Source: Siphonodentalium dalli (Eukaryota; Mollusca; Scaphopoda; Gadilida; Siphonodentaliidae). From it: DNA of 64,000 bases. Below the pieces are notes generated by a model. That model was not told the origin of the DNA, did not search any database, and saw nothing but the letters and a program-made list of their open reading frames with translations. Both the position numbers and the translations under genes were made by a program. Of this stretch, positions 929-60,482 are shown piece by piece; within the stretch, counting starts at the first letter, position 1, and the number at the start of each line of letters is the position of its first letter. The stretch spans positions 205,770,750 through 205,834,749 of the forward strand of contig CP136069.1 in NCBI GenBank assembly GCA_032622095.1, read 5' to 3'.

Positions 929-1292
929 GCCAATGCATTGGCCCAACAATTTTATATATATATATTTTTTTATCAATTTTTCGTGCATTCTTTCACAATT
1001 TTTATTATTTTCTTTTATCATTTTTTATCATTTTTTTCCTACATTCTTAACAATTTTATCGTTTTTGATAATTTTTTCTGATATTATTTATCAATTTTTA
1101 TAATTTTTGATCATTATTTCTTACATCCTTTAACAATTTTGTATAATTTTCTTCATTTTGTTTACATTCTTTAACAATTATAAAAAATAATATAATTTTT
1201 TTTAGGCCAACGCATTCTCTTATACATGTATATGCGAGGCGACCTATGGTCGACCATATGGTCGACTCGCATATATAAGAGAATTCATTGGC
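929..1292. mobile_element. degenerate copy of the palindrome-ended MITE
   Basis: The right end (1206-1292) is an 87-bp version of the palindrome seen at ten other places in the window, with an extra duplicated centre. The left end (929-942) has shrunk to GCCAATGCATTGGC, which is the outer 7 bp of each arm joined directly. Between them lies the AT-rich core (CAATTTTTATAATTT-type sequence) typical of the intact copies. The CCCTGTGCC outer flank has been lost on the left and is mutated on the right. Confidence 0.7.
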
Positions 1293-2688
1293 ACATGGTA
1301 TTCGCAAACTCCGATAGAGTTTCCCATTTGCTACGCTATGAACGTTTCTGAGATCCTAACAATATCCGCCAATGTTGGGGTTTCATACATTTCCATATAG
1401 CTGCTTGGGTGTAGACTATACACAGTTTATATTCGATCACTTATTCGCCAATATTAAGTTATTTTAGTATTCTGTATTGATACGAATGGGTGAGAAGTGG
1501 AATCTGACCATCGATAAGAAGTGTCACAAAATTGGCCTATATGGCACATACATTGGAGAATCTACCACAAAACGATATTTATAAATCAATTTGGTTCTCT
1601 GGTACTGTTGACTCGTCCTTATACGAGGTGGCCCGGCCATGTTATGACCGAAAAGTATAAGGCGGATTCGGCCGGTCGATGGCGAATTCCGGATAACTTT
1701 CGGAGTGTAACGTTTATCTGCGTATAAATTAACATTTTTGAAGAGCCAGTTTCCTCACCATGTATCCAGTATAATCCAACGAACAAAAATGTACAGTTTA
1801 TCGATAAAATTACACTATTATTTATCAAACTTACCGCTTTTTTGCAACACGCTCCATTTTTGTTCTGGTGATTAATTAGGATGCCAACAAAAATCGCAAT
1901 GGAAGTGGAATAAAAACATGCAAAGGATGAGGAGCAGTTAACCAACAGTGACGGTGCATGGTGGAGCTTGTGTATGCAGTTGCATTGTGTCTGTGGGGGG
2001 GGGGGGGGGGGGGGGGGGTGAGGGCGTCTTGGTTACACTGGTGAACATATTTTCCAAAGGCCTCAGTGCAATCGTTTAGTGTTTACTGTTTACAATATAA
2101 TTCCTAGATCCAAAATTTTATTTAAATCTGAAAGCACAGCAATACATATTTTAGACCACACCAATCATAGGAAAGAAGTCATATATATGTTTTATGCTAA
2201 AAAAAACACTCACACTGCTATTGGCAATCAGGCTCCCGTGTCTATTTTATTCTCTACTATAATTCCGCCCGCATCCGCTAGATGTCACTCCGAACCATAT
2301 TTACACCAGTGTAACCTAACCAACCACACCTGATATGACAAATTATTTATTTTGTTCAATTTTTCACATTCTGCTTCTCGCAGCAGTCGAGAACCACCAA
2401 ATTGTTTAGCTTTTACACAGGTGCTAACATTTTTTTCTCTCGCTGCGATGACCAACATCTGATTGAGACGTGGATGGTCTCCAGGTGGTGCCGAAATAAC
2501 ACCTGCATGCAAGACATGTTATTCCACGCATTATAGATACCATGTTTTCTTCGGGAGAGATTAATTTATTTGACAATGGAAACATCTGAGTGCCAAACCA
2601 GATGCGAAACGCATGGATCAAGGGGAGTATTTGAATCAACACATCCATCCGGACTATAAGGACCACCAAGTAAGATGCCAGCAGGGAC
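1293..2688. other. non-coding stretch with a 24-bp poly-G tract
   Basis: No gene is recognised. There is an uninterrupted G run at 1995-2018. Segments at about 1860-1960 and 2337-2480 are diverged copies of sequence at 340-650. Confidence 0.4.
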
Positions 2689-9748: not shown

Positions 9749-10201
9749 TTAACCCTTTCAGTGCCAGGTCCGATTTTTGTATCAACCCCTATACCCTGTA
9801 CCAATGCATTCTCTTATATATGCGAGTCGACCATAAGTCGCCTCACATATATAAGAGAATGCATTGGCCTAAACAAATTTCATCAATTGTTATTATTTTT
9901 TACAATTTGTTACAATTTTAATATTTTTTTCTTATATTCTTTAACTCTTTCAGTATTTTGTAGGTTTAGTGCCAGGGAATCTTACGTTTTTCATGGGCAT
10001 CAGAATTATTACTATGAATACTTGGTGATAGTTTTGAGTTATAACATGCCGCTAAGGTTTTATCCAGTTTGTTTTTAAATTCGCTATAGCATGCTTAAGC
10101 ATACCCCAAAAAAATTCAACCCAAAAAAAAAAAAAAAAAAAAATTTTAAATATTTTTTAGGGCCGATTTACAGACCGTAAATTAGGCACTGAAAGGGTTA
10201 A
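9749..10201. mobile_element. piggyBac-like MITE, family B, copy 1
   Basis: The element is bounded by TTAA at both ends. Its terminal inverted repeats read TTAACCCTTTCAGTGCC and GGCACTGAAAGGGTTAA. A TTAA target site with ends beginning CCC is the hallmark of the piggyBac superfamily. The ~450-bp body has no transposase frame. Near its left end it carries one 69-bp palindrome (9800-9868) plus part of the AT-rich core of the palindrome-ended element. Copy 2 (37674-38137) has the same internal layout. Confidence 0.85.
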
Positions 10202-15591: not shown

Positions 15592-16306
15592 CAAGGCATC
15601 GATCACATTCGTAGCCAGCTTTTTAAATCGACCACAAATGTAGCCAGCTTTTCTGTGGTGATCACATTTGTAGCCAGCTTTTCATATTCATGCGAGCCTC
15701 AATGAACAAGATTATGTTAATCTCATTGTTCTGAGTTGATGGATGACAACCAACTTGAATTTTAATTTGATATTAGTTCATCTAGTAATCTAACGTTTCT
15801 GATCAATGTCGTTAGAATGCTCGAATTATATTCCAATATAAGTTTATTGTTAACCTCCTCAATTTAGGAGATTTAACGCTTTACCCAACATAATGGCCCC
15901 GTGCCAATGCATTCTCTTATATATGCGAGTCGACCATATGTCGCCTCGCATATATAAGAGAATGCATTGGCTTAACACATTAAAAATTATAAAATTGTTA
16001 AAGAATGTAAGAAAAAATGGTAAAAAGTGTTAAAAAAAGATTTTTTTTAGGCCAATGCATTCTCTTATATATGCGAGGCGACCTATGGTCGACTCGCATA
16101 TATAAGAAAATGCATTGGCACAGGGCATAACTGTAACTATCACAATGTGGTCAAGGAGCCGGTTCCAATGATATCCATATTTGTATGGTTCTATTGAGAC
16201 AGACCGAAGATATTTTAGGCTGTTGAAGCTTTATTTGGCCGGTTTTGGCCGTTTTGTTGGGTAAAGGGTTAAAAAGCTGGCTACGAATGTGACCGGAGCC
16301 TTGTGA
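15592..16306. mobile_element. outer foldback element split by a TTAA MITE
   Basis: The stretch at 15592-15632 (ACAAGGC, CACATTCGTAGCCAGCTTTT) recurs inverted at 16270-16306 (AAAAGCTGGCTACGAATGTG, GCCTTGTGAC). A family-A MITE (15873-16272) ends exactly beside the right arm. An older inverted-end element was thus apparently invaded by the MITE. More copies of 'gtagccagctttt' follow the left arm at about 15646-15682. Confidence 0.6.
15873..16272. mobile_element. piggyBac-like MITE, family A, copy 1
   Basis: It is bounded by TTAA, with ends TTAACGCTTTACCCAACA and TTGTTGGGTAAAGGGTTAA. The body has no transposase. It encloses both 69-bp palindromes of the palindrome-ended element (15903-15971 and 16051-16119). 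A specific right arm then runs CATAACTGTAACTATCACAA ... CCGTTTTGTTGGG. The same asymmetric layout is seen at 32937-33392, and inverted at 28373-28706. Position: intron 4. Confidence 0.9.
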
Positions 16307-20479: not shown

Positions 20480-20532
20480 CTGAAATAAGACCCGCCATAT
20501 CAAATCCAGTCGTAAGTCGGGATTTTTTTTTA

Positions 20533-20920
20533 CCCTGTGCCAATGCATTCTCTTATATATGCGAGTCGACCATAGGTCGAGTCGACCATAGGTCGCCTCG
20601 CATATAGAAGAGAATGCATTGGCCTAACAATTTTTTTCATTTTTTAAAAATAAATGTTTCTTACAATTTTTAGGACATAAAATAAAAAAACACCCATTAC
20701 CCTGCAGGGAGCCCCACACATATATAGAAGCATATAGAAGAGTGTCGTCTGCTCATGTTTGTCTGGGGCTCTGTATGGGTGAAATTATAAAATTGTTAAA
20801 GAATACAAGACAAAATTATTAAAATTGTAAAAAATTGTTAGGCCGGCCAATGCATTCTCTTATATATGCGAGGCGACCTATGGTCGACTCGCATATATAA
20901 GAGAATGCATTGGCACAGGG
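20533..20920. mobile_element. palindrome-ended MITE, free-standing copy
   Basis: The ends are TACCCTGTGCC and GGCACAGGGTA, so the likely target is TA. Each end carries the palindrome: 20539-20623 (85 bp, with a 16-bp internal duplication at its centre) and 20846-20914 (69 bp), in inverted orientation. The AT-rich core (AACAATTTTT / AAAATTGTTA) contains a further nested foldback. There is no coding capacity. It lies in intron 2. Confidence 0.85.
20691..20781. mobile_element. 91-bp foldback nested in the MITE core
   Basis: CACCCATTACCCTGCAGGGA / GCCCCACAC pairs with GTCTGGGGCTCTGTATGGGTG across a short loop. It is absent from the cores of the other copies, so it is an insertion. Confidence 0.6.
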
Positions 20921-28372: not shown

Positions 28373-28706
28373 TTAACCCTTTACCCAACAAACCGGCCAA
28401 AAACGCCCAAATAAAGCTGCAACAGCCTAAATTATCTTGGGTCTGTCTCAATAAAACCATACAAATATTGATATCATTGGAACCGGCTCATTGACGACAT
28501 TGTGATGGTTACAGTTATGCCCTGTGCCAATGCATTCTCTTATATATGCGAGTCGACCATAGGTCGCCTCGCATTCTTTAACAATTTTATAATTTTTAAT
28601 GTGTTAAGCCAATGCATTCTCTTATATATGCGAGGCGACCTATGGTCGACTCGCATATATAAGAGAATGCATTGGCACAGGGCCGTTCTGTTGGGTAAAG
28701 AGTTAA
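28373..28706. mobile_element. piggyBac-like MITE, family A, copy 2 (inverted)
   Basis: TTAACCCTTTACCCAACA and TGTTGGGTAAAGAGTTAA form the ends. The layout is the reverse of copies 1 and 3: the long specific arm (AAAGCTGCAACAGCCTAAAT ... GTTACAGTTATG) is on the left and the short arm on the right. The left palindrome (28526 to about 28574) is cut off after its centre by a deletion reaching into the AT-rich core. The right one (28608-28676) is complete. Confidence 0.9.
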
Positions 28707-32936: not shown

Positions 32937-33392
32937 TTAACCCTTTACCCAACAGAACCGCCCTGTGCCAATGCATTCTCTTATATATGCGAGTCGACCA
33001 TGGGTCGCCTCGCATATATAAGAGAATGCATTGGCTTAACACATATTAAAAATGATAAAATTGTCAAAGAATGTAGAAAAATATTATAAAAATTGTTAAA
33101 AAATGTAAGAAAAATTTATAAAATTGTTAAAGAATGTAAGAAAAAATGGTAAAAAGTGTTAAAAAAAGAACTTTTTTTAGGCCAATGCATTCTCTTATAT
33201 ATGCGAGGCGACCTGTGGTCGGCTCGCATATATAAGAGAATGCATTGGCACAGGGCATAACTGTAACCATCACAATGTGGTCAATGAACCGGTTCCAATG
33301 ATATCCATATTTGTATGGTGTTATTGAGACAGACCGATGATATTTTAGGCCGTTGAAGCTTTATTTGGCCGTTTTGTTGGGTAAAGGGTTAA
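32937..33392. mobile_element. piggyBac-like MITE, family A, copy 3 (best preserved)
   Basis: TTAACCCTTTACCCAACA and TTGTTGGGTAAAGGGTTAA with TTAA at both ends. Both palindromes are full length (32967-33035 and 33181-33249). The AT-rich core is 145 bp. The long specific arm (CATAACTGTAACCATCACAA ... GGCCGTTTTGTTGGG) is on the right. Confidence 0.92.
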
Positions 33393-34380: not shown

Positions 34381-35852
34381 ATGGATCTGTTTAAAGGGAT
34401 AACCACTAAACTCATGAAGGAAACAATTGAAACCATAGCTCCGGCATTGAAACATATATTTAACCTCTCATTTGAACAAGGAATTGTCCCAGAAAAGATG
34501 AAAATAGCAAAGGTTGTTCCAATACCAAAAAATAACAATGCACACGAAATTACAGACCAATCAGCATCCTACCTACTTTTTCCAAGCTATTAGAACGAAT
34601 AATGCAAAAACGCCTAATAGATTTTTTAACTGAGCACGATATTTTGTACAAGCACCAATATGGCTTCCGTCCAAACCACTCTACTTTTCATCCAATCGTA
34701 CATCTTCTCGACCAAATAGCCAATAACAATGATAAAACAACCAGGGATTCAACAATAGCACTATTCCTAGACCTCTCTAAAGCATTTGACACTATAAATC
34801 ATGATATATTAATTTCAAAATTATATCATTACGGGATAAGGGGTACTGCCCTATCTTGGTTCCAAAGCTATCTAGACAACAGACGACAATATGTTGAACT
34901 ACAGGGAAATAAATCCAAACTAATTGACATAACGTGCGGAGTCACTCAAGGCTCCATACTCGGCCCTATAATTTTTTTAATCTACGCTAACGATATGCCA
35001 AACGCGACAAGCATGAATATATTGTCTTACGCAGATGATACCACCTTAATGACTAGCGGGGATAACGGTACTCAAATTGAAAGCTATGTGAACAATGAAC
35101 TACGTAATATATACACCTGGTGTTGCTGCAATAAGCTTTCTATAAACTCAGAAAAGAGCAATTATATGCTCATGCACCCGGAAAATAACGACACCAAATG
35201 GAGCACTATGAAAATTCTCTTAAATAACACAGAATTGAAAAGTATTGGAAATCGTGAGCACGAAACCTCAACGAAATTTTTAGGCATTCACATAGATGAA
35301 AATCTATCATTTAAGAAACACATATCATCTGTCTGCTCCAAATTAGCGCACGCCATATATCATATAAACAAAGTCAAAAACTTTTTCCCAGGCATCGCCC
35401 TTAAAACGTTATATTATGCCCTAATCCAAAGTCACTTGGTATATGGAATCCAGATATGGGGCCATGTTCCCGAGGTAAAACGAGTTTTTTTACTACAAAA
35501 AAGAGCAATACGAATTGTGTGTAATAAAAAATACAGGAGCCATACCGAACCTTTGTTTAAAAAAGAGAATATCTTGAAAGTATGCGACCCCCACAAAGTC
35601 CATACTACCCTATTCATGCATGACTGGTATTACAACCGCCTGCCTGAATCCTTTTCCCAAATGTTCACTAAACGTATTGCCGGACCGGATACTAGACAAC
35701 AGCGCCCATTATTTCTCAAAACCCCGAGAACCTCCTTTTCTGAACAGCTACCATTTCATGCATTCCCAACCTCATGGAACAACTTAGATAACACTTTGAC
35801 TAAAAATCAAAGTAGGCACGTATTCAAAAACACATCACAGAGAAAACAATAA
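34381..35852 (+). pseudogene. reverse transcriptase of the non-LTR element, frameshifted
   Basis: The protein starts mid-domain (KGITTKLMKETIETIAPALK ... KVVPIPK). About 34548-34555 a one-base loss shifts frame: before it the frame ends HEI, and after it the reading continues NYRPISILPTFSKLLERIMQ in the frame of 34602-35852. Conserved RT blocks follow. These are YGFRPNHST, LFLDLSKAFDTINHDILISK, GVTQGSILGP (T replaces the usual P of GVPQGS), and SYADDTTL with the catalytic ADD. FLGIHIDENLSFKKHI then marks the thumb/post-RT region. The C-terminus (QIWGHVPE, LLQKRAIRI) is typical of Jockey/CR1-related proteins. 5' truncation and the frameshift mean it cannot move itself. The catalytic block itself looks intact, so the insertion is not very old. 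Confidence 0.9.
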
Positions 35853-37673: not shown

Positions 37674-38137
37674 TTAACCCTTTCACTGCCAGGTCCGATT
37701 TTTGTATCAACCCATATACCCTGTGCCAATGCATTCTCTTATATATGCGAGTCGACCATAGGTCGCCTCGCATATATAAGAGAATGCATTGGCCTAACAA
37801 TTTTTCATCATTTGTTATTATGTTTTACAATTTTTCTTATATTCTTTAACAGACTTATTTTGTAGGTTTAGTGCCAGGGAATCTTACGTTTTTCATGGGC
37901 ATCAAAATTATTACTATGAATACTTGGTGATAGTTTTGAGTTATAACATACCCCTAAGGATTTATCCAGTTTGTTTTTAAATTCGCTATAGCATGCTTAA
38001 GCATACCCAAAAAAAATTCAACCCAAAAAAATCTAAACAAAAAAGATTTTTATAATTTTTTATATTTTTTTTAGGGCCGATTTTACAGACCGTAAATTAG
38101 GGCCGATGAGATCGGTTCCTGGCACTGAAAGGGTTAA
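37674..38137. mobile_element. piggyBac-like MITE, family B, copy 2
   Basis: TTAACCCTTTCACTGCC and GGCACTGAAAGGGTTAA with TTAA at both ends. It carries one 69-bp palindrome (37725-37793) preceded by TACCCTGTGCC and followed by part of the AT-rich core, with the same junction as in copy 1. It ends 30 bp before the 27-bp satellite. Confidence 0.9.
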
Positions 38138-38167
38138 TGCTGTTGTCAACAGCCGAGTCCATCGAAA

Positions 38168-41100
38168 CACCTGTATATCAGCTCATCTAATAAACACCTG
38201 TGTATCAGCTCATCTAATAAACACCTGTATATCAGCTCATCTAATAAACACATGTATATCAGCTCATCTAATAAACACCTGTATATCAGCTCATCTAATA
38301 AACACCTGTATATCAGCTCATCTAATAAACACCTGTATATCAGATCATCTAATAAACACCTGTATATCAGCTCATCTAATAAACACCTGTATATCATCTC
38401 ATCTAATAAACACCTGTATATCAGCTCATCTAATAAACACCTGTATATCAGCTCATCTAATAAACACCTGTATATCATCTCATCTAATAAACACCTGTAT
38501 ATCAGCTCATCTAATAAACACCTGTATATCAGCTTATCTAATAAAGACCTGTATATCAGCTCATCTAATAAACACCTGTATATCAGCTCATCTAATAAAC
38601 ACCTGTATATCAGCTCATCTAATAAACACCTGTATATCAGCTCATCTAATAAACACCTGTATATCAGCTCATCTAATAAACACCTGTATATCAGCTCATC
38701 TAATAAACACCTGTATATCAGCTCATCTAATAAACACCTGTATATCAGCCATCTAATAAACACCCGTCTATCAGCTCATCTAATAAACACCTGTATATCA
38801 GCTCATCTAATAAACACCTTTATATCAGCTCATTTAATAAACACCTGTATATCGGCTCATCTAATAAACAGCTATATATCAGCTCATCTAATAAACACCT
38901 GTATATCAGCTCATTTAATAAACACCTGTATATCAGCTCATCTAATAAACACCTGTATATCAGCTCATCTAATAAACACCTGTATATCAGCTCATCTAAT
39001 AAACACCTGTATATCAGCTCATCTAATAAACACCTGTATATCAGCTCATCTAATAAACACCTGTATATCAGCTCATCTAATAAACACCTGTATATCAGCT
39101 CATCTAATAAACACCTGTATATCAGCCATCTAATAAACACCTGTATATCAGCTCATCTAATAAACACCTGTATATCAGCTCATCTAATAAACACCTGTAT
39201 ATCAGCTCATTTAATAAACACCTGTATATCAGCTCATCTAATAAACACCCGTGTAAAAGCTCATCTAATAAACACCTGTATATCAGCTCATCTAATAAAC
39301 ACCTGTATATCAGCTCATCTAATAAACACCTGTAAATCAGCTCATCTAATAAACACATGTATATCAGCTCATCTAATAAATACCTCTATATCAGCTCATC
39401 TAATAAACACATGTATATCAGCTCATCTAATAAACACCTGTATATCAGCTCATCTAATAAACACCTGTATATCAGCTCATCTAATAAATACCTGTATATC
39501 AGCTCATATAATAAACACCTGTATATCAGCCATCTAATAAACACCTGTATATCAGCTCATCTAATAAACACCTGTATATCAGCTCATCTAATAAACACCT
39601 GTATATCAGCTCATCTAATAAACACCTGTATAGCAGCTCATCTAATAAACACCTGTATATCAGCTCATCTAATAAACACCTGTATATCAGCTCATCTAAT
39701 AAACACCTGTATATCAGCTCATCTAATAAACACCTGTATATCAGCTCATCTAATAAACACCTGTATATCAGCTCATCTAATAAACACCTGTATGTCAGCT
39801 CATCTAATAAACACCTGTATATCAGCTCATCTAATAAACACCTGTATATCAGCCATCTAATAAACACCTGTATATCAGCTCATCTAATAAACACCTGTAT
39901 ATCAGCTCATCTAATAAACACCTGTATATCAGATCATCTAATAAACACCTGTATATCAGCTCATCTAATAAACACCTGTATATCATCTCATCTAATAAAC
40001 ACCTGTATATCAGCTCATCTAATAAACACCTGTATATCAGCTCATCTAATAAACACCTGTATATCATCTCATCTAATAAACACCTGTATATCAGCTCATC
40101 TAATAAACACCTGTATATCAGCTTATCTAATAAAGACCTGTATATCAGCTCATCTAATAAACACCTGTATATCAGCTCATCTAATAAACACCTGTATATC
40201 AGCTCATCTAATAAACACCTGTATATCAGCTCATCTAATAAACACCTGTATATCAGCTCATCTAATAAACACCTGTATATCAGCTCATCTAATAAACACC
40301 TGTATATCAGCTCATCTAATAAACACCTGTATATCAGCTCATCTAATAAACACCTGTATATCAGCCATCTAATAAACACCCGTCTATCAGCTCATCTAAT
40401 AAACACCTGTATATCAGCTCATCTAATAAACACCTTTATATCAGCTCATTTAATAAACACCTGTATATCGGCTCATCTAATAAACAGATATATATCAGCT
40501 CATCTAATAAACACCTGTATATCAGCTCATTTAATAAACACCTGTATATCAGCTCATCTAATAAACACCTGTATATCAGCTCATCTAATAAACACCTGTA
40601 TATCAGCTCATCTAATAAACACCTGTATATCAGCTCATCTAATAAACACCTGTATATCAGCTCATCTAATAAACACCTGTATATCAGCTCATCTAATAAA
40701 CACCTGTATATCAGCTCATCTAATAAACACCTGTATATCAGCCATCTAATAAACACCTGTATATCAGCTCATCTAATAAACACCTGTATATCAGCTCATC
40801 TAATAAACACCTGTATATCAGCTCATTTAATAAACACCTGTATATCAGCTCATCTAATAAACACCCGTGTAAAAGCTCATCTAATAAACACCTGTATATC
40901 AGCTCATCTAATAAACACCTGTATATCAGCTCATCTAATAAACACCTGTAAATCAGCTCATCTAATAAACACATGTATATCAGCTCATCTAATAAATACC
41001 TCTATATCAGCTCATCTAATAAACACATGTATATCAGCTCATCTAATAAACACCTGTATATCAGCTCATCTAATAAACACCTGTATATCAGCTCATCTAA

Positions 41101-44100
41101 TAAATACCTGTATATCAGCTCATATAATAAACACCTGTATATCAGCCATCTAATAAACACCTGTATATCAGCTCATCTAATAAACACCTGTATATCAGCT
41201 CATCTAATAAACACCTGTATATCAGCTCATCTAATAAACACCTGTATAGCAGCTCATCTAATAAACACCTGTATATCAGCTCATCTAATAAACACCTGTA
41301 TATCAGCTCATCTAATAAACACCTGTATATCAGCTCATCTAATAAACACCTGTATATCAGCTCATCTAATAAACACCTGTATATCAGCTCATCTAATAAA
41401 CACCTGTATGTCAGCTCATCTAATAAACACCTGTATATCAGCTCATTTAATAAACACCTGTATAGCAGCTCATCTAATAAACACCTGTATATCAGCTCAT
41501 CTAATAAACACCTGTGTATCAGCTCATCTAATAAACACCTGTATGTCAGCTCATCTAATAAACACCTGTATATCAGCTCATCTAATAAACACCTGTATAT
41601 CAGCTCATCTAATAAACACCTGTATATCAGCTCATCTAATAAACACCTGTATATCAGCTTATATAATAAACACCTGTATATCAGCTCATCTAATAAACAC
41701 CTGTATATCAGCTCATTTAATAAACACCTGTATATCAGATCATCTAATAAACACCTGTATATCATCTCATCTAATAAACACCTGTATATCATCTCATCTA
41801 ATAAACACCTGTATATCAGCTCATCTAATAAACACCTGTATATCAGCTCATCTAATAAACACCTGTATATCATCTCATCTAATAAAAACCTGTATATCAG
41901 CTCATCTAATAAACACCTGTATATCAGCTTATCTAATAAAGATCTGTATATCAGCTCATCTAATAAACACCTGTATATCAGCTCATCTAATAAACACCTG
42001 TATATCAGCTCATCTAATAAACACCTGTATATCAGCTCATCTAATAAACACCTGTATATCAGCTCATCTAATAAACACCTGTATATCAGCTCATCTAATA
42101 AACACCTGTATATCAGCTCATCTAATAAACACCTGTATATCAGCTCATCTAATAAACACCTGTATATCAGCCATCTAATAAACACCCGTCTATCAGCTCA
42201 TCTAATAAACACCTGTATATCAGCTCATCTAATAAACACCTGTATATCAGCTCATTTAATAAACACCTGTATATCGGCTCATCTAATAAACAGCTATATA
42301 TCAACTAATCTAATAAACACCTGCATATCAGCTCATCTAATAAACACCTGTATATCAGATCATCTAATAAACACCTGTATATCAGCTTATCTAATAAACA
42401 CCTGTGTATCAGCTCATCTAATAAACACCTGTATATCAGCTCATCTAATAAACACCTGTATATCAGCTTATCTAATAAACACCTGTGTATCAGCTCATCT
42501 AATAAACACCTGTATATCAGCTAATCTAATAAACACCTGTATATCAGCTAATCTAATAAACACCTGTATATCAGCTCATCTAATAAACACCTGTATATCA
42601 GCTCATCTAATAAACACCTGTATATCAGCTCATCTAATAAACACATGTATATCAGCTTATCTAATAAACACCTGTGTATCAGCTCATCTAATAAACACCT
42701 GTGTATCAGCTCATCTAATAAACACCTGTATATCAGCTCATCTAATAAACACCTGTATATCAGCTCATCTAATAAACACCCGTGTATCAGCTCATCTAAT
42801 AAACACCTGTATATCAGCTCATCTAATAAACACCTGTATATCAGCTCATCTAATAAACACCTGTATATCAGCTCATCTAATAAACACATGTATATCAGCT
42901 CATCTAATAAATACCTCTATATCAGCTCATCTAATAAACACATGTATATCAGCTCATATAATAACACCTGTATATCAGCTCATCTAATAAACACCTGTAT
43001 ATCAGCTCATCTAATAAATACCTGTATATCAGCTCATATAATAAACACCTGTATATCAGCCATCTAATAAAGACCTGTATATCAGCTCATCTAATAAACA
43101 CCTGTATATCAGCTCATCTAATAAACACCTGTATATCAGCTCATCTAATAAACACCTGTATATCAGCCATCTAATAAACACCCGTCTATCAGCTCATCTA
43201 ATAAACACCTGTATATCAGCTCATCTAATAAACACCTTTATATCAGCTCATTTAATAAACACCTGTATATCGGCTCATCTAATAAACAGCTATATATCAG
43301 CTCATCTAATAAACACCTGTATATCAGCTCATTTAATAAACACCTGTATATCAGCTCATCTAATAAACACCTGTATATCAGCTCATCTAATAAACACCTG
43401 TATATCAGCTCATCTAATAAACACCTGTATATCAGCTCATCTAATAAACACCTGTATATCAGCTCATCTAATAAACACCTGTATATCAGCTCATCTAATA
43501 AACACCTGTATATCAGCTCATCTAATAAACACCTGTATATCAGCCATCTAATAAACACCTGTATATCAGCTCATCTAATAAACACCTGTATATCAGCTCA
43601 TCTAATAAACACCTGTATATCAGCTCATTTAATAAACACCTGTATATCAGCTCATCTAATAAACACCCGTGTAAAAGCTCATCTAATAAACACCTGTATA
43701 TCAGCTCATCTAATAAACACCTGTATATCAGCTCATCTAATAAACACCTGTAAATCAGCTCATCTAATAAACACATGTATATCAGCTCATCTAATAAATA
43801 CCTCTATATCAGCTCATCTAATAAACACATGTATATCAGCTCATCTAATAAACACCTGTATATCAGCTCATCTAATAAACACCTGTATATCAGCTCATCT
43901 AATAAATACCTGTATATCAGCTCATATAATAAACACCTGTATATCAGCCATCTAATAAACACCTGTATATCAGCTCATCTAATAAACACCTGTATATCAG
44001 CTCATCTAATAAACACCTGTATATCAGCTCATCTAATAAACACCTGTATAGCAGCTCATCTAATAAACACCTGTATATCAGCTCATCTAATAAACACCTG

Positions 44101-47100
44101 TATATCAGCTCATCTAATAAACACCTGTATATCAGCTCATCTAATAAACACCTGTATATCAGCTCATCTAATAAACACCTGTATATCAGCTCATCTAATA
44201 AACACCTGTATGTCAGCTCATCTAATAAACACCTGTATATCAGCTCATCTAATAAACACCTGTATATCAGCCATCTAATAAACACCTGTATATCAGCTCA
44301 TCTAATAAACACCTGTATATCAGCTCATCTAATAAACACCTGTATATCAGATCATCTAATAAACACCTGTATATCAGCTCATCTAATAAACACCTGTATA
44401 TCATCTCATCTAATAAACACCTGTATATCAGCTCATCTAATAAACACCTGTATATCAGCTCATCTAATAAACACCTGTATATCATCTCATCTAATAAACA
44501 CCTGTATATCAGCTCATCTAATAAACACCTGTATATCAGCTTATCTAATAAAGACCTGTATATCAGCTCATCTAATAAACACCTGTATATCAGCTCATCT
44601 AATAAACACCTGTATATCAGCTCATCTAATAAACACCTGTATATCAGCTCATCTAATAAACACCTGTATATCAGCTCATCTAATAAACACCTGTATATCA
44701 GCTCATCTAATAAACACCTGTATATCAGCTCATCTAATAAACACCTGTATATCAGCTCATCTAATAAACACCTGTATATCAGACATCTAATAAACACCCG
44801 TCTATCAGCTCATCTAATAAACACCTGTATATCAGCTCATCTAATAAACACCTTTATATCAGCTCATTTAATAAACACCTGTATATCGGCTCATCTAATA
44901 AACAGCTATATATCAGCTCATCTAATAAACACCTGTATATCAGCTCATTTAATAAACACCTGTATATCAGCTCATCTAATAAACACCTGTATATCAGCTC
45001 ATCTAATAAACACCTGTATATCAGCTCATCTAATAAACACCTGTATATCAGCTCATCTAATAAACACCTGTATATCAGCTCATCTAATAAACACCTGTAT
45101 ATCAGCTCATCTAATAAACACCTGTATATCAGCTCATCTAATAAACACCTGTATATCAGCCATCTAATAAACACCTGTATATCAGCTCATCTAATAAACA
45201 CCTGTATATCAGCTCATCTAATAAACACCTGTATATCAGCTCATTTAATAAACACCTGTATATCAGCTCATCTAATAAACACCCGTGTAAAAGCTCATCT
45301 AATAAACACCTGTATATCAGCTCATCTAATAAACACCTGTATATCAGCTCATCTAATAAACACCTGTAAATCAGCTCATCTAATAAACACATGTATATCA
45401 GCTCATCTAATAAATACCTCTATATCAGCTCATCTAATAAACACATGTATATCAGCTCATCTAATAAACACCTGTATATCAGCTCATCTAATAAACACCT
45501 GTATATCAGCTCATCTAATAAATACCTGTATATCAGCTCATATAATAAACACCTGTATATCAGCCATCTAATAAACACCTGTATATCAGCTCATCTAATA
45601 AACACCTGTATATCAGCTCATCTAATAAACACCTGTATATCAGCTCATCTAATAAACACCTGTATAGCAGCTCATCTAATAAACACCTGTATATCAGCTC
45701 ATCTAATAAACACCTGTATATCAGCTCATCTAATAAACACCTGTATATCAGCTCATCTAATAAACACCTGTATATCAGCTCATCTAATAAACACCTGTAT
45801 ATCAGCTCATCTAATAAACACCTGTATGTCAGCTCATCTAATAAACACCTGTATATCAGCTCATTTAATAAACACCTGTATAGCAGCTCATCTAATAAAC
45901 ACCTGTATATCAGCTCATCTAATAAACACCTGTGTATCAGCTCATCTAATAAACACCTGTATGTCAGCTCATCTAATAAACACCTGTATATCAGCTCATC
46001 TAATAAACACCTGTATATCAGCTCATCTAATAAACACCTGTATATCAGCTCATCTAATAAACACCTGTATATCAGCTTATATAATAAACACCTGTATATC
46101 AGCTCATCTAATAAACACCTGTATATCAGCTCATTTAATAAACACCTGTATATCAGATCATCTAATAAACACCTGTATATCATCTCATCTAATAAACACC
46201 TGTATATCATCTCATCTAATAAACACCTGTATATCAGCTCATCTAATAAACACCTGTATATCAGCTCATCTAATAAACACCTGTATATCATCTCATCTAA
46301 TAAACACCTGTATATCAGCTCATCTAATAAACACCTGTATATCAGCTCATCTAATAAACACCTGTATATCAGCTCATCTAATAAACACCTGTATATCAGC
46401 TCATCTAATAAACACCTGTATATCAGCTCATCTAATAAACACCTGTATATCAGCTCATCTAATAAACACCTGTATATCAGCTCATCTAATAAACACCTGT
46501 ATATCAGCCATCTAATAAACACCCGTCTATCAGCTCATCTAATAAACACCTGTATATCAGCTCATCTAATAAACACCTGTATATCAGCTCATTTAATAAA
46601 CACCTGTATATCGGCTCATCTAATAAACAGCTATATATCAACTAATCTAATAAACACCTGCATATCAGCTCATCTAATAAACACCTGTATATCAGATCAT
46701 CTAATAAACACCTGTATATCAGCTTATCTAATAAACACCTGTGTATCAGCTCATCTAATAAACACCTGTATATCAGCTCATCTAATAAACACCTGTATAT
46801 CAGCTTATCTAATAAACACCTGTGTATCAGCTCATCTAATAAACACCTGTATATCAGCTAATCTAATAAACACCTGTATATCAGCTAATCTAATAAACAC
46901 CTGTATATCAGCTCATCTAATAAACACCTGTATATCAGCTCATCTAATAAACACCTGTATATCAGCTCATCTAATAAACACATGTATATCAGCTTATCTA
47001 ATAAACACCTGTGTATCAGCTCATCTAATAAACACCTGTGTATCAGCTCATCTAATAAACACCTGTATATCAGCTCATCTAATAAACACCTGTATATCAG

Positions 47101-48811
47101 CTCATCTAATAAACACCCGTGTATCAGCTCATCTAATAAACACCTGTATATCAGCTCATCTAATAAACACCTGTATATCAGCTCATCTAATAAACACCTG
47201 TATATCAGCTCATCTAATAAACACATGTATATCAGCTCATCTAATAAATACCTCTATATCAGCTCATCTAATAAACACATGTATATCAGCTCATATAATA
47301 ACACCTGTATATCAGCTCATCTAATAAACACCTGTATATCAGCTCATCTAATAAATACCTGTATATCAGCTCATATAATAAACACCTGTATATCAGCCAT
47401 CTAATAAAGACCTGTATATCAGCTCATCTAATAAACACCTGTATATCAGCTCATCTAATAAACACCTGTATATCAGCTCATCTAATAAACACCTGTAAAG
47501 CAGCTCATCTAATAAACACCTGTATATCAGCTCATCTAATAAACACCTGTATATCAGCTCATCTAATAAACACCTGTATATCAGCTCATCTAATAAACAC
47601 CTGTATATCAGCTCATCTAATAAACACCTGTATATCAGCTCATCTAATAAACACCTGTATGTCAGCTCATCTAATAAACACCTGTATATCAGCTCATTTA
47701 ATAAACACCTGTATAGCAGCTCATCTAATAATCACCTGTATATCAGCTCATCTAATAAACACCTGTATATCAGCTCATCTAATAAACACCTGTATGTCAG
47801 CTCATCTAATAAACACCTGTATATCAGCTCATCTAATAAACACCTGTATATCAGCTCATCTAATAAACACCTGTATATCAGCTCATCTAATAAACACCTG
47901 TATATCAGCTATCTAATAAACACCTGTATATCAGCTTATATAATAAACACCTGTATATCAGCTCATCTAATAAACACCTGTATATCAGCTCATTTAATAA
48001 ACACCTGTATATCAGATCATCTAATAAACACCTGTATATCATCTCATCTAATAAACACCTGTATATCGGCTCATCTAATAAACAGCTATATATCAGCTCA
48101 TCTAATAAACACCTGTATATCAGCTCATCTAATAAACACCTGTATATCAGATCATCTAATAAACACCTGTATATCAGCTTATATAATAAACACCTGTGTA
48201 TCAGCTCATCTAATAAACACCTGTATATCAGCTCATTTAATAAACACCTGTATATCAGATCATCTAATAAACACCTGTATATCATCTCATCTAATAAACA
48301 CCTGTATATCGGCTCATCTAATAAACACCTGTATATCAGCTCATCTAATAAACACCTGTATATCAGCTCATCTAATAGACACCTGTATATCAGCTCATCT
48401 AATAAACACCTGTATATCAGCTTATATAATAAACACCTGTATGTCAGTTCATCTAATAAACACCTGTATATCAGCTCATCTAATAAACACCTGTATATCA
48501 GCTCATCTAATAAACACCTGTATATCAGGTCATCTAATAAACACCCGTGTATCAGCTCATCTAATAACCACCTGTATATCAGCTCATTTAATAAACACCT
48601 GTATATCAGCTCATATAATAAACACATGTATATCAGCTCATCTAATAAACACCTGTATATCAGCTCATATAATAAACACCTGTATATCAGCTCATCTAAT
48701 AAACACCTGTATATCATCTCATCTAATAAACACCTGTATATCAGCTCATCTAATAAACACCTGTATATCATCTCATCTAATAAACACCTGTATATCAGCT
48801 TATCTAATATA
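38168..48811. repeat. 27-bp satellite, ~394 units, with nested higher-order repeats
   Basis: The consensus is CACCTGTATATCAGCTCATC plus TAATAAA. Single-base deletions (CAGCCATCT for CAGCTCATCT) act as landmarks. The same landmark pattern recurs at offsets of 1,616 bp (38748 and 40364; 43166 and about 44783), equal to 60 units minus four bases. It also recurs at 4,418 bp (38748 and 43166), or 4,337 bp (42170 and 46507), which is exactly three units shorter. Because 27 is divisible by three, frames stay open on both strands (INTCISAHL / YRCLLDELI). No start, splice or conservation signal supports protein coding. The last ~1 kb (47.9-48.8 kb) is the most variable. Confidence 0.98.
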
Positions 48812-49362
48812 CAACAAGTATAATCTTCAAACCAGAGTGGAAAATCACACTTTAATTCACTGAACATTGATATTGAACATACATGTAAAGTTAAATTGGA
48901 CTTCATTGCAAAAAAGTTGACTCCACCCTCAGTAATAATCAATCCTATATAGAAAGGTGGCCAAATTGACCGGGCCTGCATTTTTTTAATTTTTAACGCA
49001 CACAAACTGGTTCAAAATAGACAATGTGATGTTGTGTTGAGAAGTAAACAGCACAATATGTCTACCACATGTATAACACAGAACTATAGATAATTGTCAT
49101 CTTACATTTTCAAACCGAGAGTACCTGCTTTCCGGGATGCATGTCACAAAGCGACTTGTTTGATTCAAATCAAATAAATGACTTGTCTGTTCCGGTAAAT
49201 GTAGCAATTGTATTCCTGCGTCTTGTAATTCAAACCCTGTTTTATCTCAAAACAATGTTCACATGCAGTGCCCATGTTGTTTGGATGACACATGTATGGG
49301 TGGTCTTGTCTTATGTAGTTGTTCATGGTCTACATGTATGAACTTACAAAGTCTTGCCTTAT
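48812..49362. other. stretch between satellite and lectin gene
   Basis: Includes the likely 3' UTR of the minus-strand lectin gene (below 49363). No AATAAA was identified confidently on that strand. Confidence 0.4.
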
Positions 49363-50115
49363 TCAAAACAGTCGCCATTCGCATACGAATCCTCTAATCT
49401 CCATGCATTGTTGGGCATTCATCCTGTAATTGTTTTCCTGTTTTATCTCAACACAATTTTCATTTGCTGTGTTGCTTGGGGGCTTTACTCTCCAATCACA
49501 GTGAGGCACCGGATTCCCTGATGACGTCACGAATTCTCCTTCATTCTGGATGTCGTTGCCATTTATCCAGAACCCAGAGATGACCTTCAGTACGTCATCA
49601 TCCAATATGTAACCAATCAGCGAATCCCACTGATCATGGGCTTCGACGATGAAGAGTTGTCCACCTTGATTTTCGCAGATTTCTTGAGCGTCGTCGAATA
49701 TAATCGGCGTCGTGTATATGTGGAATCGTTTTGATCCGATGACGTCAACGCTCTTCAATCCCTGACATCGGTATCCGGGTCCCATTCCGGGTCCAGTGTT
49801 TCCCGTCGGAACACATATATCATCGCCACACACACCGGTCTTGCAGTTATTATCTGAAGATTCTGGTTTGTGAACAACGTCGCCATGTAGACTGCTGGCG
49901 TCAATTATGAGCAGACATTCTTTGTTCTTAAAATGAACTTTCACGCATGCGTGATGATACGTGCACAATTTGCGGCATCGTATGTAATTTTCAGTTCTGA
50001 TAACGAATACTTTATCTGCTGCACAAATCATGGCCAGTTCAAGAAGTACACAAGAAAATAAAACAGTCAGTATTATAAAGACAACACGAGTCATATATCC
50101 ATGGTAAGCACTCAT
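49363..50115 (-). CDS. secreted or membrane-anchored PAN/apple-like plus C-type lectin domain protein
   Basis: This is a single unspliced frame. I prefer the ATG at 50115 (A at -3), giving about 250 aa; ATGs at 50166 and 50094 are in frame. A hydrophobic N-terminal stretch (VVFIILTVLFSCVLLELAMI) is a signal peptide or anchor. Next comes RCRKLCTYHHACVKVHFKNK-E-C, which has the Cys spacing of a PAN/apple-like module. A short Cys-rich linker (NNCKTGVCGDDICVPTGN ... YRC) follows, then a C-type lectin domain. The lectin domain has FDDAQEICENQGGQLFIVEA, FWINGND (the WIGxxD position), ENCVEI, QQC and a final GFVCEW. All four core Cys are present. The usual EPN/QPD and WND calcium-sugar motifs are replaced (KPPSN; YRMNAQQC), so calcium-dependent sugar binding is doubtful. 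Such proteins act extracellularly in recognition or adhesion. The partner is unknown. Confidence 0.85.
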   Translation of the reverse strand: MSAYHGYMTRVVFIILTVLFSCVLLELAMICAADKVFVIRTENYIRCRKLCTYHHACVKVHFKNKECLLIIDASSLHGDVVHKPESSDNNCKTGVCGDDICVPTGNTGPGMGPGYRCQGLKSVDVIGSKRFHIYTTPIIFDDAQEICENQGGQLFIVEAHDQWDSLIGYILDDDVLKVISGFWINGNDIQNEGEFVTSSGNPVPHCDWRVKPPSNTANENCVEIKQENNYRMNAQQCMEIRGFVCEWRLF

Positions 50116-50166
50116 AATTGGCAACTGATTGTGTGTCATTCGATGCATGTGTGGCGTACAGTTCAA

Positions 50167-50614
50167 GAATCATGTAAAAAAATAAGTTAGGAATACACAT
50201 CGATTCACTCCCCTAGGTCACATCGCATCTGTGGTCGTTGTACATATGTGGTCGTTGTATGTGCCAGCAGACTGTTAGAATATTAGCTCGCAAAGATTCT
50301 TCTATAGTATCACGCATGCGCAATGTATACACGATGGCAGTTTTAATCTGGAGAAGTTAGCACTGGTTAACTAATCTTTAAATTAAATTACCCTTATATA
50401 TTCAGACTCACACGCAACCGCACAATGTACTTTCCACGACACGGGCCACAAGTGTGCTTCACACTGTAACTGTTCGATTTTTATCATTAATTTAGTTTCA
50501 ACATGATGACAATGTACGAAGAAATCGAAACTTGTATAAGATAAAATAATAAGGGATGTTGAGTCTATGCTGTTATGTTATAATATAACTCGAGTTGAAC
50601 ATTTCATAATGAAA
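50167..50614. other. 5' flank of the lectin gene
   Basis: No further exon is recognised. The presumed promoter of the minus-strand lectin gene lies here; no convincing TATA box was fixed. Confidence 0.35.
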
Positions 50615-53600
50615 AGCGCTTCATCGTACCTGATCTAGTCAATGGGGTTAGTGCTTGAGAAGGCAGATGACAATATAAGCGCTTCATCGTACCTGATCTA
50701 GTCAATGGGGTTAGTGCTTGAGAAGGCAGGTGACAATATAAGCGCGTCATCGTACCTGATCTAGTCAATGGGGTTAGTGCTTGAGAAGGCAGGTGACAAT
50801 ATAAGCGCGTCATCGTACCTGATCTAGTCAATGGGGTTAGTGCTTGAGAAGGCAGATGACAATATAAGCGCGTCATCGTACCTGATCTAGTCAATGGGGT
50901 TAGTGCTTGAGAAGGCAGGTGACAATATAAGCGCGTCATCGTACCTGATCTAGTCAATGGGGTTAGTGCTTGAGAAGGCAGGTGACAATATAAGAGCGTC
51001 ATCGTACCTGATCTAGTCAATGGGGTTAGTGCTTGAGAAGGCAGGTGACAATATAAGAGCGTCATCGTACCTGATCTAGTCAATGGGGTTAGTGCTTGAG
51101 AAGGCAGGTGACAATATAAGCGCGTCATCGTACCTGATCTAGTCAATGGGGTTAGTGCTTGAGAAGGCAGGTGACAATATAAGCGCGTCATCGTACATGA
51201 TCTAGTCAATGGGGTTAGTGCTTGAGAAGGCAGGTGACAATATAAGCGCGTCATCGTACCTGATCTAGTCAATGGGGTTAGTGCTTGAGAAGGCAGGTGA
51301 CAATATAAGCGCGTCATCGTACATGATCTAGTCAATGGGGTTAGTGCTTGAGAAGGCAGGTGACAATATAAGCGCGTCATCGTACATGATCTAGTCAATG
51401 GGGTTAGTGCTTGAGAAGGCAGGTGACAATATAAGCGCGTCATCGTACCTGATCTAGTCAATGGGGTTAGTGCTTGAGAAGGCAGGTGACAATATAAGCG
51501 CGTCATCGTACCTGATCTAGTCAATGGGGTTAGGGCAGGTGACAATATAAGCGCGTCATCGTACCTGATCTAGTCAATGGGGTTAGTGCTTGAGAAGGCA
51601 GGTGACAATATAAGCGCGTCATCGTATCTGATCTAGTCAATGGGGTTAGTGCTTGAGAAGGCAGGTGACAATATAAGCGCTTCATCGTACCTGATCTAGT
51701 CAATGGGGTTAGTGCTTGAGAAGGCAGGTGACAATATAAGAGCTTCATCGTACCTGATCTAGTCAATGGGGTTAGTGCTTGAGAAGGCAGGTGACAATAT
51801 AAGCGCTTCATCGTACCTGATCTAGTCAATGGGGTTAGTGCTTGAGAAGGCAGGTGACAATATAAGCGCTTCATCGTACCTGATCTAGTCAATGGGGTTA
51901 GTGCTTGAGAAGGCAGGTGACAATATAAGCGCGTCATCGTACATGATCTAGTCAATGGGGTTAGTGCTTGAGAAGGCAGGTGACAATATAAGCGCGTCAT
52001 CGTACCTGATCTAGTCAATGGGGTTAGTGCTTGAGAAGGCAGGTGACAATATAAGCGCTTCATCGTACCTGATCTAGTCAATGGGGTTAGTGCTTGAGAA
52101 GGCAGGTGACAATATAAGCGCGTCATCGTACCTGATCTAGCCAATGGGGTTAGTGCTTGAGAAGGCAGGTGACAATATAAGCGCTTCATCGTACCTGATC
52201 TAGTCAATGGGGTTAGTGCTTGAGAAGGCAGGTGACAATATAAGCGCGTCATCGTACCTGATCTAGTCAATGGGGTTAGTGCTTGAGAAGGCAGGTGACA
52301 ATATAAGAGCGTCATCGTACCTGATCTAGTCAATGGGGTTAGTGCTTGAGAAGGCAGGTGACAATATAAGCGCGTCATCGAACCTGATCTAGTCAATGGG
52401 GTTAGTGCTTGAGAAGGCAGGTGACAATATAAGCGCTTCATCGTACCTGATCTAGTCAATGGGGTTAGTGCTTGAGAAGGCAGGTGACAATATAAGCGCG
52501 TCATCGTACATGATCTAGTCAATGGGGTTAGTGCTTGAGAAGGCAGGTGACAATATAAGCGCGTCATCGTACCTGATCTAGTCAATGGGGTTAGTGCTTG
52601 AGAAGGCAGGTGACAATATAAGCGCTTCATCGTACCTGATCTAGTCAATGGGGTTAGTGCTTGAGAAGGCAGGTGACAATATAAGCGCTTCATCGTACCT
52701 GATCTAGTCAATGGGGTTAGTGCTTGAGAAGGCAGGTGACAATATAAGCGCGTCATCGTACATGATCTAGTCAATGGGGTTAGTGCTTGAGAAGGCAGGT
52801 GACAATATAAGCGCTTCATCGTACCTGATCTAGTCAATGGGGTTAGTGCTTGAGAAGGCAGATGACAATATAAACGCGTCATCGTACCTGATCTAGTCAA
52901 TGGGGTTAGTGCTTGAGAAGGCAGATGACAATATAAGCGCGTCATCGTACCTGATCTAGTCAGTGGGGTTAGTGCTTGAGAAGGCAGGTGACAATATAAG
53001 CGCGTCATCATACCTGATCTAGTCAATGGGGTTAGTGCTTGAGAAGGCAGGTGACAATATAAGCGCTTCATCGTACCTGATCTAGTCAATGGGGTTAGTG
53101 CTTGAGAAGGCAGGTGACAATATAAGCGCGTCATCGTACATGATCTAGTCAATGGGGTTAGTGCTTGAGAAGGCAGGTGACAATATAAGCGCTTCATCGT
53201 ACCTGATCTAGTCAATGGGGTTAGTGCTTGAGAAGGCAGATGACAATATAAACGCGTCATCGTACCTGATCTAGTCAATGGGGTTAGTGCTTGAGAAGGC
53301 AGATGACAATATAAGCGCGTCATCGTACCTGATCTAGTCAGTGGGGTTAGTGCTTGAGAAGGCAGGTGACAATATAAGCGCGTCATCATACCTGATCTAG
53401 TCAATGGGGTTAGTGCTTGAGAAGGTAGGTGACAATATAAGCGCGTCATCGTACCTGATCTAGTCGATGGGGTTAGTGCTTGAGAAGGCAGGTGACAATA
53501 TAAGCGCGTCCTCGTACCTGATCTAGTCAATGGGGTTAGTGCTTGAGAAGGCAGGTGACAATATAAGCGCGTCACCGTACCTGATCTAGTCAATGGGGTT

Positions 53601-59600: not shown

Positions 59601-60482
59601 ATCGTACCTGATCTAGTCAATGAGGTTAGTGCTTGAGAAGGCAGATGACAATATAAGCGCGTCCTCGTACCTGATCTAGTCAATGAGGTTAGTGCTTGAG
59701 AAGGCAGATGACAATATAAGCGCTTCATCGTACCTGATCTAGTCAATGAGGTTAGTGCTTTAGAAGGCAGATGACAATATAAGCGCTTCATCGTACCTGA
59801 TCTAGTCAATGAGGTTAGTGCTTGAGAAGGCAGATGACAATATAAGCGCTTCATCGTACCTGATCTAGTCAATGAGGTTAGTGCTTGAGAAGGCAGATGA
59901 CAATATAAGCGCTTCATCGTACCTGATCTAGTCAATGAGGTTAGTGCTTGAGAAGGCAGATGACAATATAAACGCTTCATCGTACCTGATCTAGTCAATG
60001 AGGTTAGTGCTTGAGAAGGCAGATGACAATATAAGCGCGTCCTCGTACGTGATCTAGTCAATGAGGTTAGTGCTTGAGAAGGCAGATGACAATATAAGCG
60101 CTTCATCGTACCTGATCTAGTCAATGGGGTTAGTGCTTGAGAAGGCAGATGACAATATAAGCGCTTCATCGTACCTGATCTAGTCAATGAGGTTAGTGCT
60201 TGAGAAGGCAGATGACAATATAAGCGCGTCCTCGTACCTGATCTAGTCAATGAGGTTAGTGCTTGAGAAGGCAGATGACAATATAAGCGCTTCATCGTAC
60301 CTGATCTAGTCAATGAGGTTAGTGCTTGAGAAGGCAGATGACAATATAAGCGCGTCCTCGTACCTGATCTAGTCAATGGGGTTAGTGCTTGAGAAGGCAG
60401 GTGATAATATAAGCGCTTCATCGTACCTGATCTAGTCAATGGGGTTAGTGCTTGAGAAGGCAGGTGACAATATAGGCGCTTC
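50615..60482. repeat. 63-bp satellite, ~157 units, with 2,324-bp higher-order repeat
   Basis: The consensus unit begins GCGCGTCATCGTACCTGATC and continues TAGTCAATGGGGTTAGTGCT, then TGAGAAGGCAGGTGACAATATAA. Variants co-vary in blocks. A rare GCGCATCATGG variant at 55191 recurs at 57515, 2,324 bp away; that is 37 units minus one 7-bp deletion (CTGATCTGGGGTTAG junctions near 54521 and 56405). A TGGTGTTAG variant recurs at 55281 and 57668 (one unit more). A six-unit (378-bp) block repeats at about 52.76 and 53.14 kb. The right end (58.8-60.4 kb) is enriched for CAATGAGG and GCAGATGAC variants. Minus-strand frames of up to 1348 codons result from the 63-bp length. Confidence 0.98.

Follow-up and report, generated by a model that had tools for sequence, protein, structure and literature searches.

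Introduction

The closest precedent for the DNA described here is the CMITEs of Acropora corals, a group of TTAA piggyBac MITEs whose families differ in their TIRs and share a conserved internal region, to which the authors ascribe a proposed role in transposition (PMC2872659). As far as that source describes them, CMITEs are about 100 bp long, contain a 75-bp internal region and number about 1,600 copies in A. millepora (PMC2872659). No earlier report of the palindrome cassette that is the subject of this work was found in the literature searched (subscription papers and Repbase were outside its scope), and CMITEs alone came close. Foldback elements such as Galileo have large, self-folding inverted repeats, the TIRs there being terminal and long, and in rice Stowaway MITEs internal sequence alters transposition. 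Internal, non-terminal sequence also alters the transposition of mPing (PMC9921582). As far as they have been described, the internal sequences of mPing and Stowaway are not palindromes common to several families. Among TTAA elements, subterminal palindromes are known from the autonomous piggyBac (19 bp) and piggyBat (P3LE, 14 bp), and in piggyBac two CRDs of the dimeric transposase bind to the palindrome (PMC11707139). Kolobok elements also duplicate TTAA, and their termini are given as 5'-RR...YY-3' (PMC9587614).

We analysed a stretch of 64,000 nucleotides (the window) from the scaphopod Siphonodentalium dalli (assembly GCA_032622095.1, contig CP136069.1, positions 205,770,750 to 205,834,749). 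In it a preliminary description had pointed out, at 32961-33255, a unit that starts CCCTGTGCC, ends GGCACAGGG and encloses an AT-rich core between two near-perfect 69-bp palindromes. The unit had been taken for a MITE with palindromic termini, of a design not recognised as that of a named family.

A TTAA-flanked element surrounds the palindromes

The unit has the composition just given, and each palindrome is an inverted copy of its partner. We searched the genome (2.23 Gb, nine contigs) with all 295 bp of it and found matches of nearly full length, at 94-100% identity, in the 40 candidates scored. The best 20 of these, the window's own copy included, were aligned to locate the boundaries. The outer sequence continues past the unit on the left in 20/20 copies and on the right in 19/20, so that CCCTGTGCC and GGCACAGGG are not the element's termini; in the one exception, locus L014, the right outer sequence departs after about 13 bases. 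Identity stops at TTAA on both sides of the alignment, 20 bp left of the unit in the window copy and a further 130-150 bp or so to its right. Because identity ends at TTAA and the window copy has TTAA at both ends, the real element is 32941-33388, a TTAA-flanked sequence of 448 bp with the ends CCCTTTACCC...GGGTAAAGGG. It is a piggyBac-type MITE, the first of the families described below (family A), and the 295-bp unit is its inner cassette, which stops 20 bp short of the true left end and 133 bp short of the true right end (Table 1). This outer sequence rules out a MITE with palindromes at its true ends. The palindromic design is real and belongs to a MITE, as had been proposed, and the palindromes are subterminal or internal to it.

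Table 1. Parts of the family A element and further cassette copies in the window (positions count from the first base of the window).
Feature	Position	Strand	Basis
TTAA, left target-site duplication of outer family A element	32937..32940	+	TTAA on both sides in 43/51 A elements
Left outer end, family A, CCCTTTACCCAACAGAACCG	32941..32960	+	flank identity ends at TTAA, 20 copies
Palindrome cassette CCCTGT...ACAGGG, 295 bp	32961..33255	+	
Left 69-bp palindrome, T/C mispair at pair 28, 3-nt loop	32967..33035	+	
AT-rich core, degenerate tandem unit of ~32 bp, related to C, D2 and B cores	33036..33180	+	
Right 69-bp palindrome, inverted copy of left, mispair here G/G	33181..33249	+	
Right outer part, family A, ending TTTTGTTGGGTAAAGGG	33256..33388	+	
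TTAA, right target-site duplication	33389..33392	+	
Second family A element, including its TTAAs; cassette about 15897-16125	15873..16272	+	
Third family A element; palindrome at 28526 truncated	28373..28706	-	
Family B element (TTAACCCTTTCACTGCCAGG...), single palindrome 37725-37793	37674..38137	+	
Family B element, left part, palindrome 9800-9868; right end not located	9749..9868	+	
Family C left end and cassette 20533-20920; right C end missing	20487..20920	+	
Degenerate cassette end, enlarged palindrome centre, jacket not recognised	1206..1298	-	

The palindrome arm, GCCAATGCATTCTCTTATAT, occurs 21 times in the window at up to three mismatches, against 0.01 expected from shuffles. Folded as single-stranded DNA, each 69-mer gives a hairpin whose 32-bp stem contains one mispair and is closed by a 3-nt loop, and which is far more stable than shuffles (z of -14 to -19). 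The count of eleven palindromes in the window is right if the truncated unit at 28526 is included. The single T/C mispair attributed to all eleven is less uniform than that: the right palindrome of this element has G/G, and the centres at 1206 and 20539 are enlarged or duplicated.

One cassette lies within at least four MITE families

We found the cassette, CCCTGT-palindrome-AT-rich core-palindrome-ACAGGG, inside MITEs of at least four families, whose outer parts we call jackets A, B, C and D. The two strands hold 62,118 and 61,903 copies of its exact 33-base end, a total of 124,021 in 2.2 Gb, and a reversed control sequence was found 0 times. To assign ends to jackets we took 60 loci (L021-L080, some of them duplicates of each other) around the first 100 matches listed, none of which lies further than 6 Mb into contig 1. 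These loci hold 83 exact ends, 78 of them in jackets (A 40, C 19, B 15, D 4); the other five come from four loci, two of them being copies of a single duplicated sequence.

Elements of families A, B and D have TTAA on both sides in 43/51, 5/6 and 20/31 cases, respectively, and their ends (CCCTTTACCC, CCCTTTGAGTG and CCCTTTCATGAC) agree with the CC[C/T]T terminal motif as defined in the CMITE source (PMC2872659). These ends begin CCC, which rules out Kolobok as its termini are described (PMC9587614). The ends of family C are long and inverted, GTGACCCGCCATATCAAATCC..., and 17/19 elements in which both are intact have the same 4 bp on either side (ATAT 14, ATTT 2, AAAT 1); C is therefore not a TTAA element. 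Because the loci are partly duplicated and ATAT reads identically on both strands, the evidence for a length of 4 bp comes chiefly from the few ATTT and AAAT cases. The target-site duplication is a property of the outer elements, being TTAA in A, B and D and apparently 4 bp, mostly ATAT, in C.

The families also differ in length and content. Units of A measure mostly 349-451 bp and those of C 435-471 bp; B (259 bp, one copy) has one palindrome and part of the core, followed by its own end. Family D, which is older (its parts diverge from consensus by 3-12% on average), comes in two forms with consensus lengths of about 255 bp (D1) and 485 bp (D2). The palindrome centre is CTCCC/GGGAG in D1, and D2 shares the centre CGACC/GGTCG with the other three families. 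All four jacket consensuses place the start of the cassette at CCCTGT, and in A, C and D the same boundary is found on both sides. Freely varying boundaries, the pattern that the preliminary description had named as contrary to its reading, were thus not what we found. Every pairing of the cores of A, C, D2 and B scores above all shuffled controls; the short core of D1 compared with the others was indistinguishable from shuffles.

A and C jackets without the cassette are nearly absent as exact patterns: the search returned only two sites for A, both resembling internal deletions, and only one for C. Read by eye, the junctions contain no consistent target duplication that would mark the cassette's own entry into the A, C or D jackets. 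The exact 27-base arm is absent from IMG/VR viral contigs and GTDB genome contigs.

The design had not been recognised as that of a named family; a described design, the CMITE, resembles it. The likeness is one of design: a TTAA duplication, CCCT ends, families that differ in their TIRs and have an internal region in common, and piggyBac-like full elements in the same genome (PMC2872659). The left TIR of CMITE family VI, CCCTTTCACTGCCA, is identical to the first 14 bases past the TTAA of the window B copy at 37674 (PMC2872659). In contrast to the roughly 100-bp length given for CMITEs, the elements here span about 250-490 bp; they contain two long mispaired palindromes (one in B), are represented by more than 120,000 exact ends and include one family that is not TTAA-flanked. 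Judged by what is described of them, CMITEs are the closest precedent for these cassette-sharing MITEs, from which they differ in size, palindromic design, copy number and the presence of a non-TTAA family. The Galileo foldbacks, too, have self-folding inverted repeats, whereas the palindromes here are internal to short elements.

Several copies depart from these patterns. L014 is an A-like element whose right part changes from CATAACTGTAACC to TATCATATTGGGGG... at the departure point and is perhaps a diverged sister family. Six of 20 fetched C-type cassettes (L084, L086, L089, L092, L095 and L099), as well as the window copy at 20533-20920, have lost one jacket, and in such copies unique sequence starts at a T/A run beside the cassette. 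The C core (for example window 20533-20920, L034 and L069) contains a second hairpin-like insert, GGGAGCCCC...GGGGCTC; in L069 a sequence similar to this insert sits directly after TTAA and may represent a further TTAA MITE family. Between about 735 and 926 kb of contig 1 (L030, 779.0-789.0 kb, lies there), cassette ends are spaced about 14.56 kb apart and then 11.17 kb, so family A elements there ride in a long-unit tandem array.

The mispair is rarely replaced by a matched pair

We examined the mispair at 123,399 centres in the genome whose 22 flanking bases are intact. Perfectly paired centres number 776 (562 T-A and 214 G-C), or 0.63%, and T/C is kept in all but one of the centre matches listed. 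The surroundings of 40 of the 562 T-A centres were A in 27, C in 8, B in 3 and unrecognised in 2, by an automatic call that is doubtful in two or three cases; since T-A centres occur in A, C and B surroundings, they represent separate events rather than one lineage. In ten of the 40 a lone palindrome is bordered by an outer end on either side, and these look like core-deletion hybrids, such as would be left if both palindromes of an element recombined with each other. Hairpin-templated repair of the mispair was rejected as an account of these numbers, as perfect centres are rare, ten of the 40 inspected are recombination-like and the rest can be explained without repair; it could operate at that low level.

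A further 4,221 centres combine the neighbouring pairs of D1 with the same T.C mispair. The D1 and D2 consensuses differ, in both arms, at two adjacent pairs of the stem, which stay paired, and they have the T.C mispair in common. The right palindrome of D1 has one further paired difference, and its left palindrome one extra unpaired position.

Shared variants are depleted in palindromes

Total divergence is lower in the palindromes than in the jackets. We considered gene conversion of the arms after insertion and rejected it, because the difference vanished in A and C once singletons alone were counted (palindrome against jacket bases: A 13/1518 vs 14/2299, p 0.43; C 10/1173 vs 6/930, p 0.62). 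Substitutions in the arms are mostly one-sided. The A and C sets contain no double arm changes at all, and the D1 and D2 copies together have 16 double changes (7 paired, or 6 without the near-duplicate L114) against 230 one-sided ones, with about 6.9 doubles expected. The D1/D2 double changes are too few to argue from and cannot be separated from clustered mutation or a shift in the alignment. It follows that an inserted copy at best rarely has one arm corrected to match its partner, and that the arms mutate mostly independently once inserted.

Variants shared by at least two copies are distributed differently. In A they occupy 0/138 palindrome sites and 13/165 jacket sites, and in C 3/138 and 9/85, so that A and C combined have 3/276 in palindromes against 22/250 in jackets; private variants are about equally frequent in the two parts in these families. 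The samples are small, some loci are duplicated and the copies were chosen through palindrome sequence (a 33-mer or a 25-mer centre) or whole-element similarity, so that lineages with altered palindromes are under-sampled. When we counted only palindrome positions largely outside the sampling 33-mer, A and C still gave 2/168 against 22/250 (p 9e-4). A second sample, of copies picked for their repaired centre at places throughout 12-118 Mb of contig 1, gave 0/176 shared-variant sites in the palindromes of A and C against 12/251 in their jackets (p 0.002). Ten of these twelve sites were in A, and family C alone showed little effect (0/88 vs 2/86); private variants were also somewhat rarer in the arms of this sample (13 vs 30). 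The corresponding values for family D are 24/138 vs 38/78 in D2, where the palindromes have fewer private variants too, and 25/138 vs 24/78 in D1. A, C and D2 show a clear depletion and D1 a weak one; the short core of D1 varies even less (2/27 sites).

Because singletons in A and C do not differ in rate between palindromes and jackets and shared variants are depleted in the palindromes, mutations in dead copies appear to be tolerated, and those that are transmitted avoid the palindromes. The depletion fits purifying constraint in amplifying lineages, as selection between element copies predicts.

piggyBac transposases in the same genome

The genome contains 128 matches to PF13843, a number in which one gene may be counted in several pieces, and many of them fall in frames open for 500-700 aa. 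We inspected 40 piggyBac loci, half of them with about 4 kb and the other half with 1.3 kb of upstream sequence (20 of the 40 were viewed on the 5' side only), and found the palindromes with a transposase-bearing element in none of them. The 69-bp palindromes are in this respect unlike the short ones of autonomous piggyBac and piggyBat (PMC11707139). When ends were compared from the TTAA inward, D matched L177 at 19/22 bases and B matched L141, L148 and L153 at 15/17, and A agreed over 11 bp only; E values were 0.03-0.8, none of them significant singly.

What the cassette may do

We give about even chances to the reading in which the 295-bp unit is the inner cassette of a piggyBac-type MITE, shared by at least four families, and its palindromes are a putative cis-acting aid to amplification. 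Under this proposal, which is drawn from sequence comparisons, copies with damaged palindromes would leave few descendants. The palindromes would most likely act as symmetric binding sites for a dimer, or as extruded hairpins near the ends, and so assist synapsis or excision by piggyBac-type transposases that full-length elements in the same genome would supply in trans. Since the subterminal palindromes of piggyBac and piggyBat are bound by a dimer, a binding-site role would be natural for A, B and D, and C would need another factor or a common one. Family C has other ends and the same palindromes, and because of this the helper may be something other than one single transposase. A bolder extension, which we think rather doubtful, is that the portable hairpin cassette is an amplification module not tied to one transposase, that its palindromes and mispair are kept by between-copy selection, and that three TTAA families and one other, with unrelated ends, reached tens of thousands of copies together after acquiring it. 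Few MITE families reach such numbers and others stay rare; here one internal module in four families with different ends accompanies high copy number. The comparison of private with shared variants offers a measurable signature of selection between element copies, and the role of internal palindromes becomes directly testable. The coral CMITE observation, unexplained by its authors, is extended to a far larger and structurally clear case.

Alternatively, the cassette could be a neutral passenger, captured a few times by the founders of successful MITEs and carried along by hitch-hiking, with a conservation that is only apparent because the copies are young. We regard this as possible but on the whole unlikely. 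Singletons in A and C fall on palindromes as they do on jackets, arm changes are mostly one-sided, and the frequency of perfect pairing is of the order expected from point mutation, all of which a passenger would show; a passenger would not be expected to be depleted of shared variants in its palindromes (A, C, D2 and the second sample), to change in pairs between D1 and D2, or to be present in four families. Less probable again is that the cassette is or was a MITE in its own right, with CCCTGT/ACAGGG ends, which entered the founders of A, B, C and D by separate insertions. Such an origin would account for a boundary at the same base in all four consensuses, and on both sides in A, C and D, as well as for the TA at both junctions in C and in one jacket-less copy (L072). 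It is hard to square with the small number of ends outside known jackets (5/83), with the near absence of cassette-free A and C jackets, and with junctions that by eye have no common target duplication (A imperfect at about 6/8 bases, C TA, D none). The flanks give no support to independent mobility of the cassette. The hallmarks of hAT elements are an 8-bp duplication and a CAGNG-type start; a hAT MITE was rejected for the cassette, which has the ends CCCTGT...ACAGGG and whose junctions, by eye, agree at about 6/8 bases in A and disagree in C and D. Finally, the palindromes might act as RNA, their transcribed hairpins giving rise to small RNAs that feed or blunt the silencing of the elements. 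MITE-derived small RNAs have precedents, and the fold of each palindrome, calculated as DNA, would suit this role, but neither the window nor locus L030 has an Rfam match at gathering score, and we consider it very improbable. The reading of the palindromes as a putative cis-acting aid remains the one we prefer.

Other features of the window

Two satellites occupy much of the second half of the window. One, of 27 bp, extends over 38165-48813 in about 395 copies with a strong C/G strand skew and begins 28 bp past the point at which the family B element (37674-38137) stops. The other, of 63 bp, extends over 50614-60479 in about 157 copies, and one of its frames is open over long stretches. Pfam matches identify an RVT_1 (reverse-transcriptase) frame at 34536-35852 and a minus-strand frame with a C-type lectin domain at 49363-50169.
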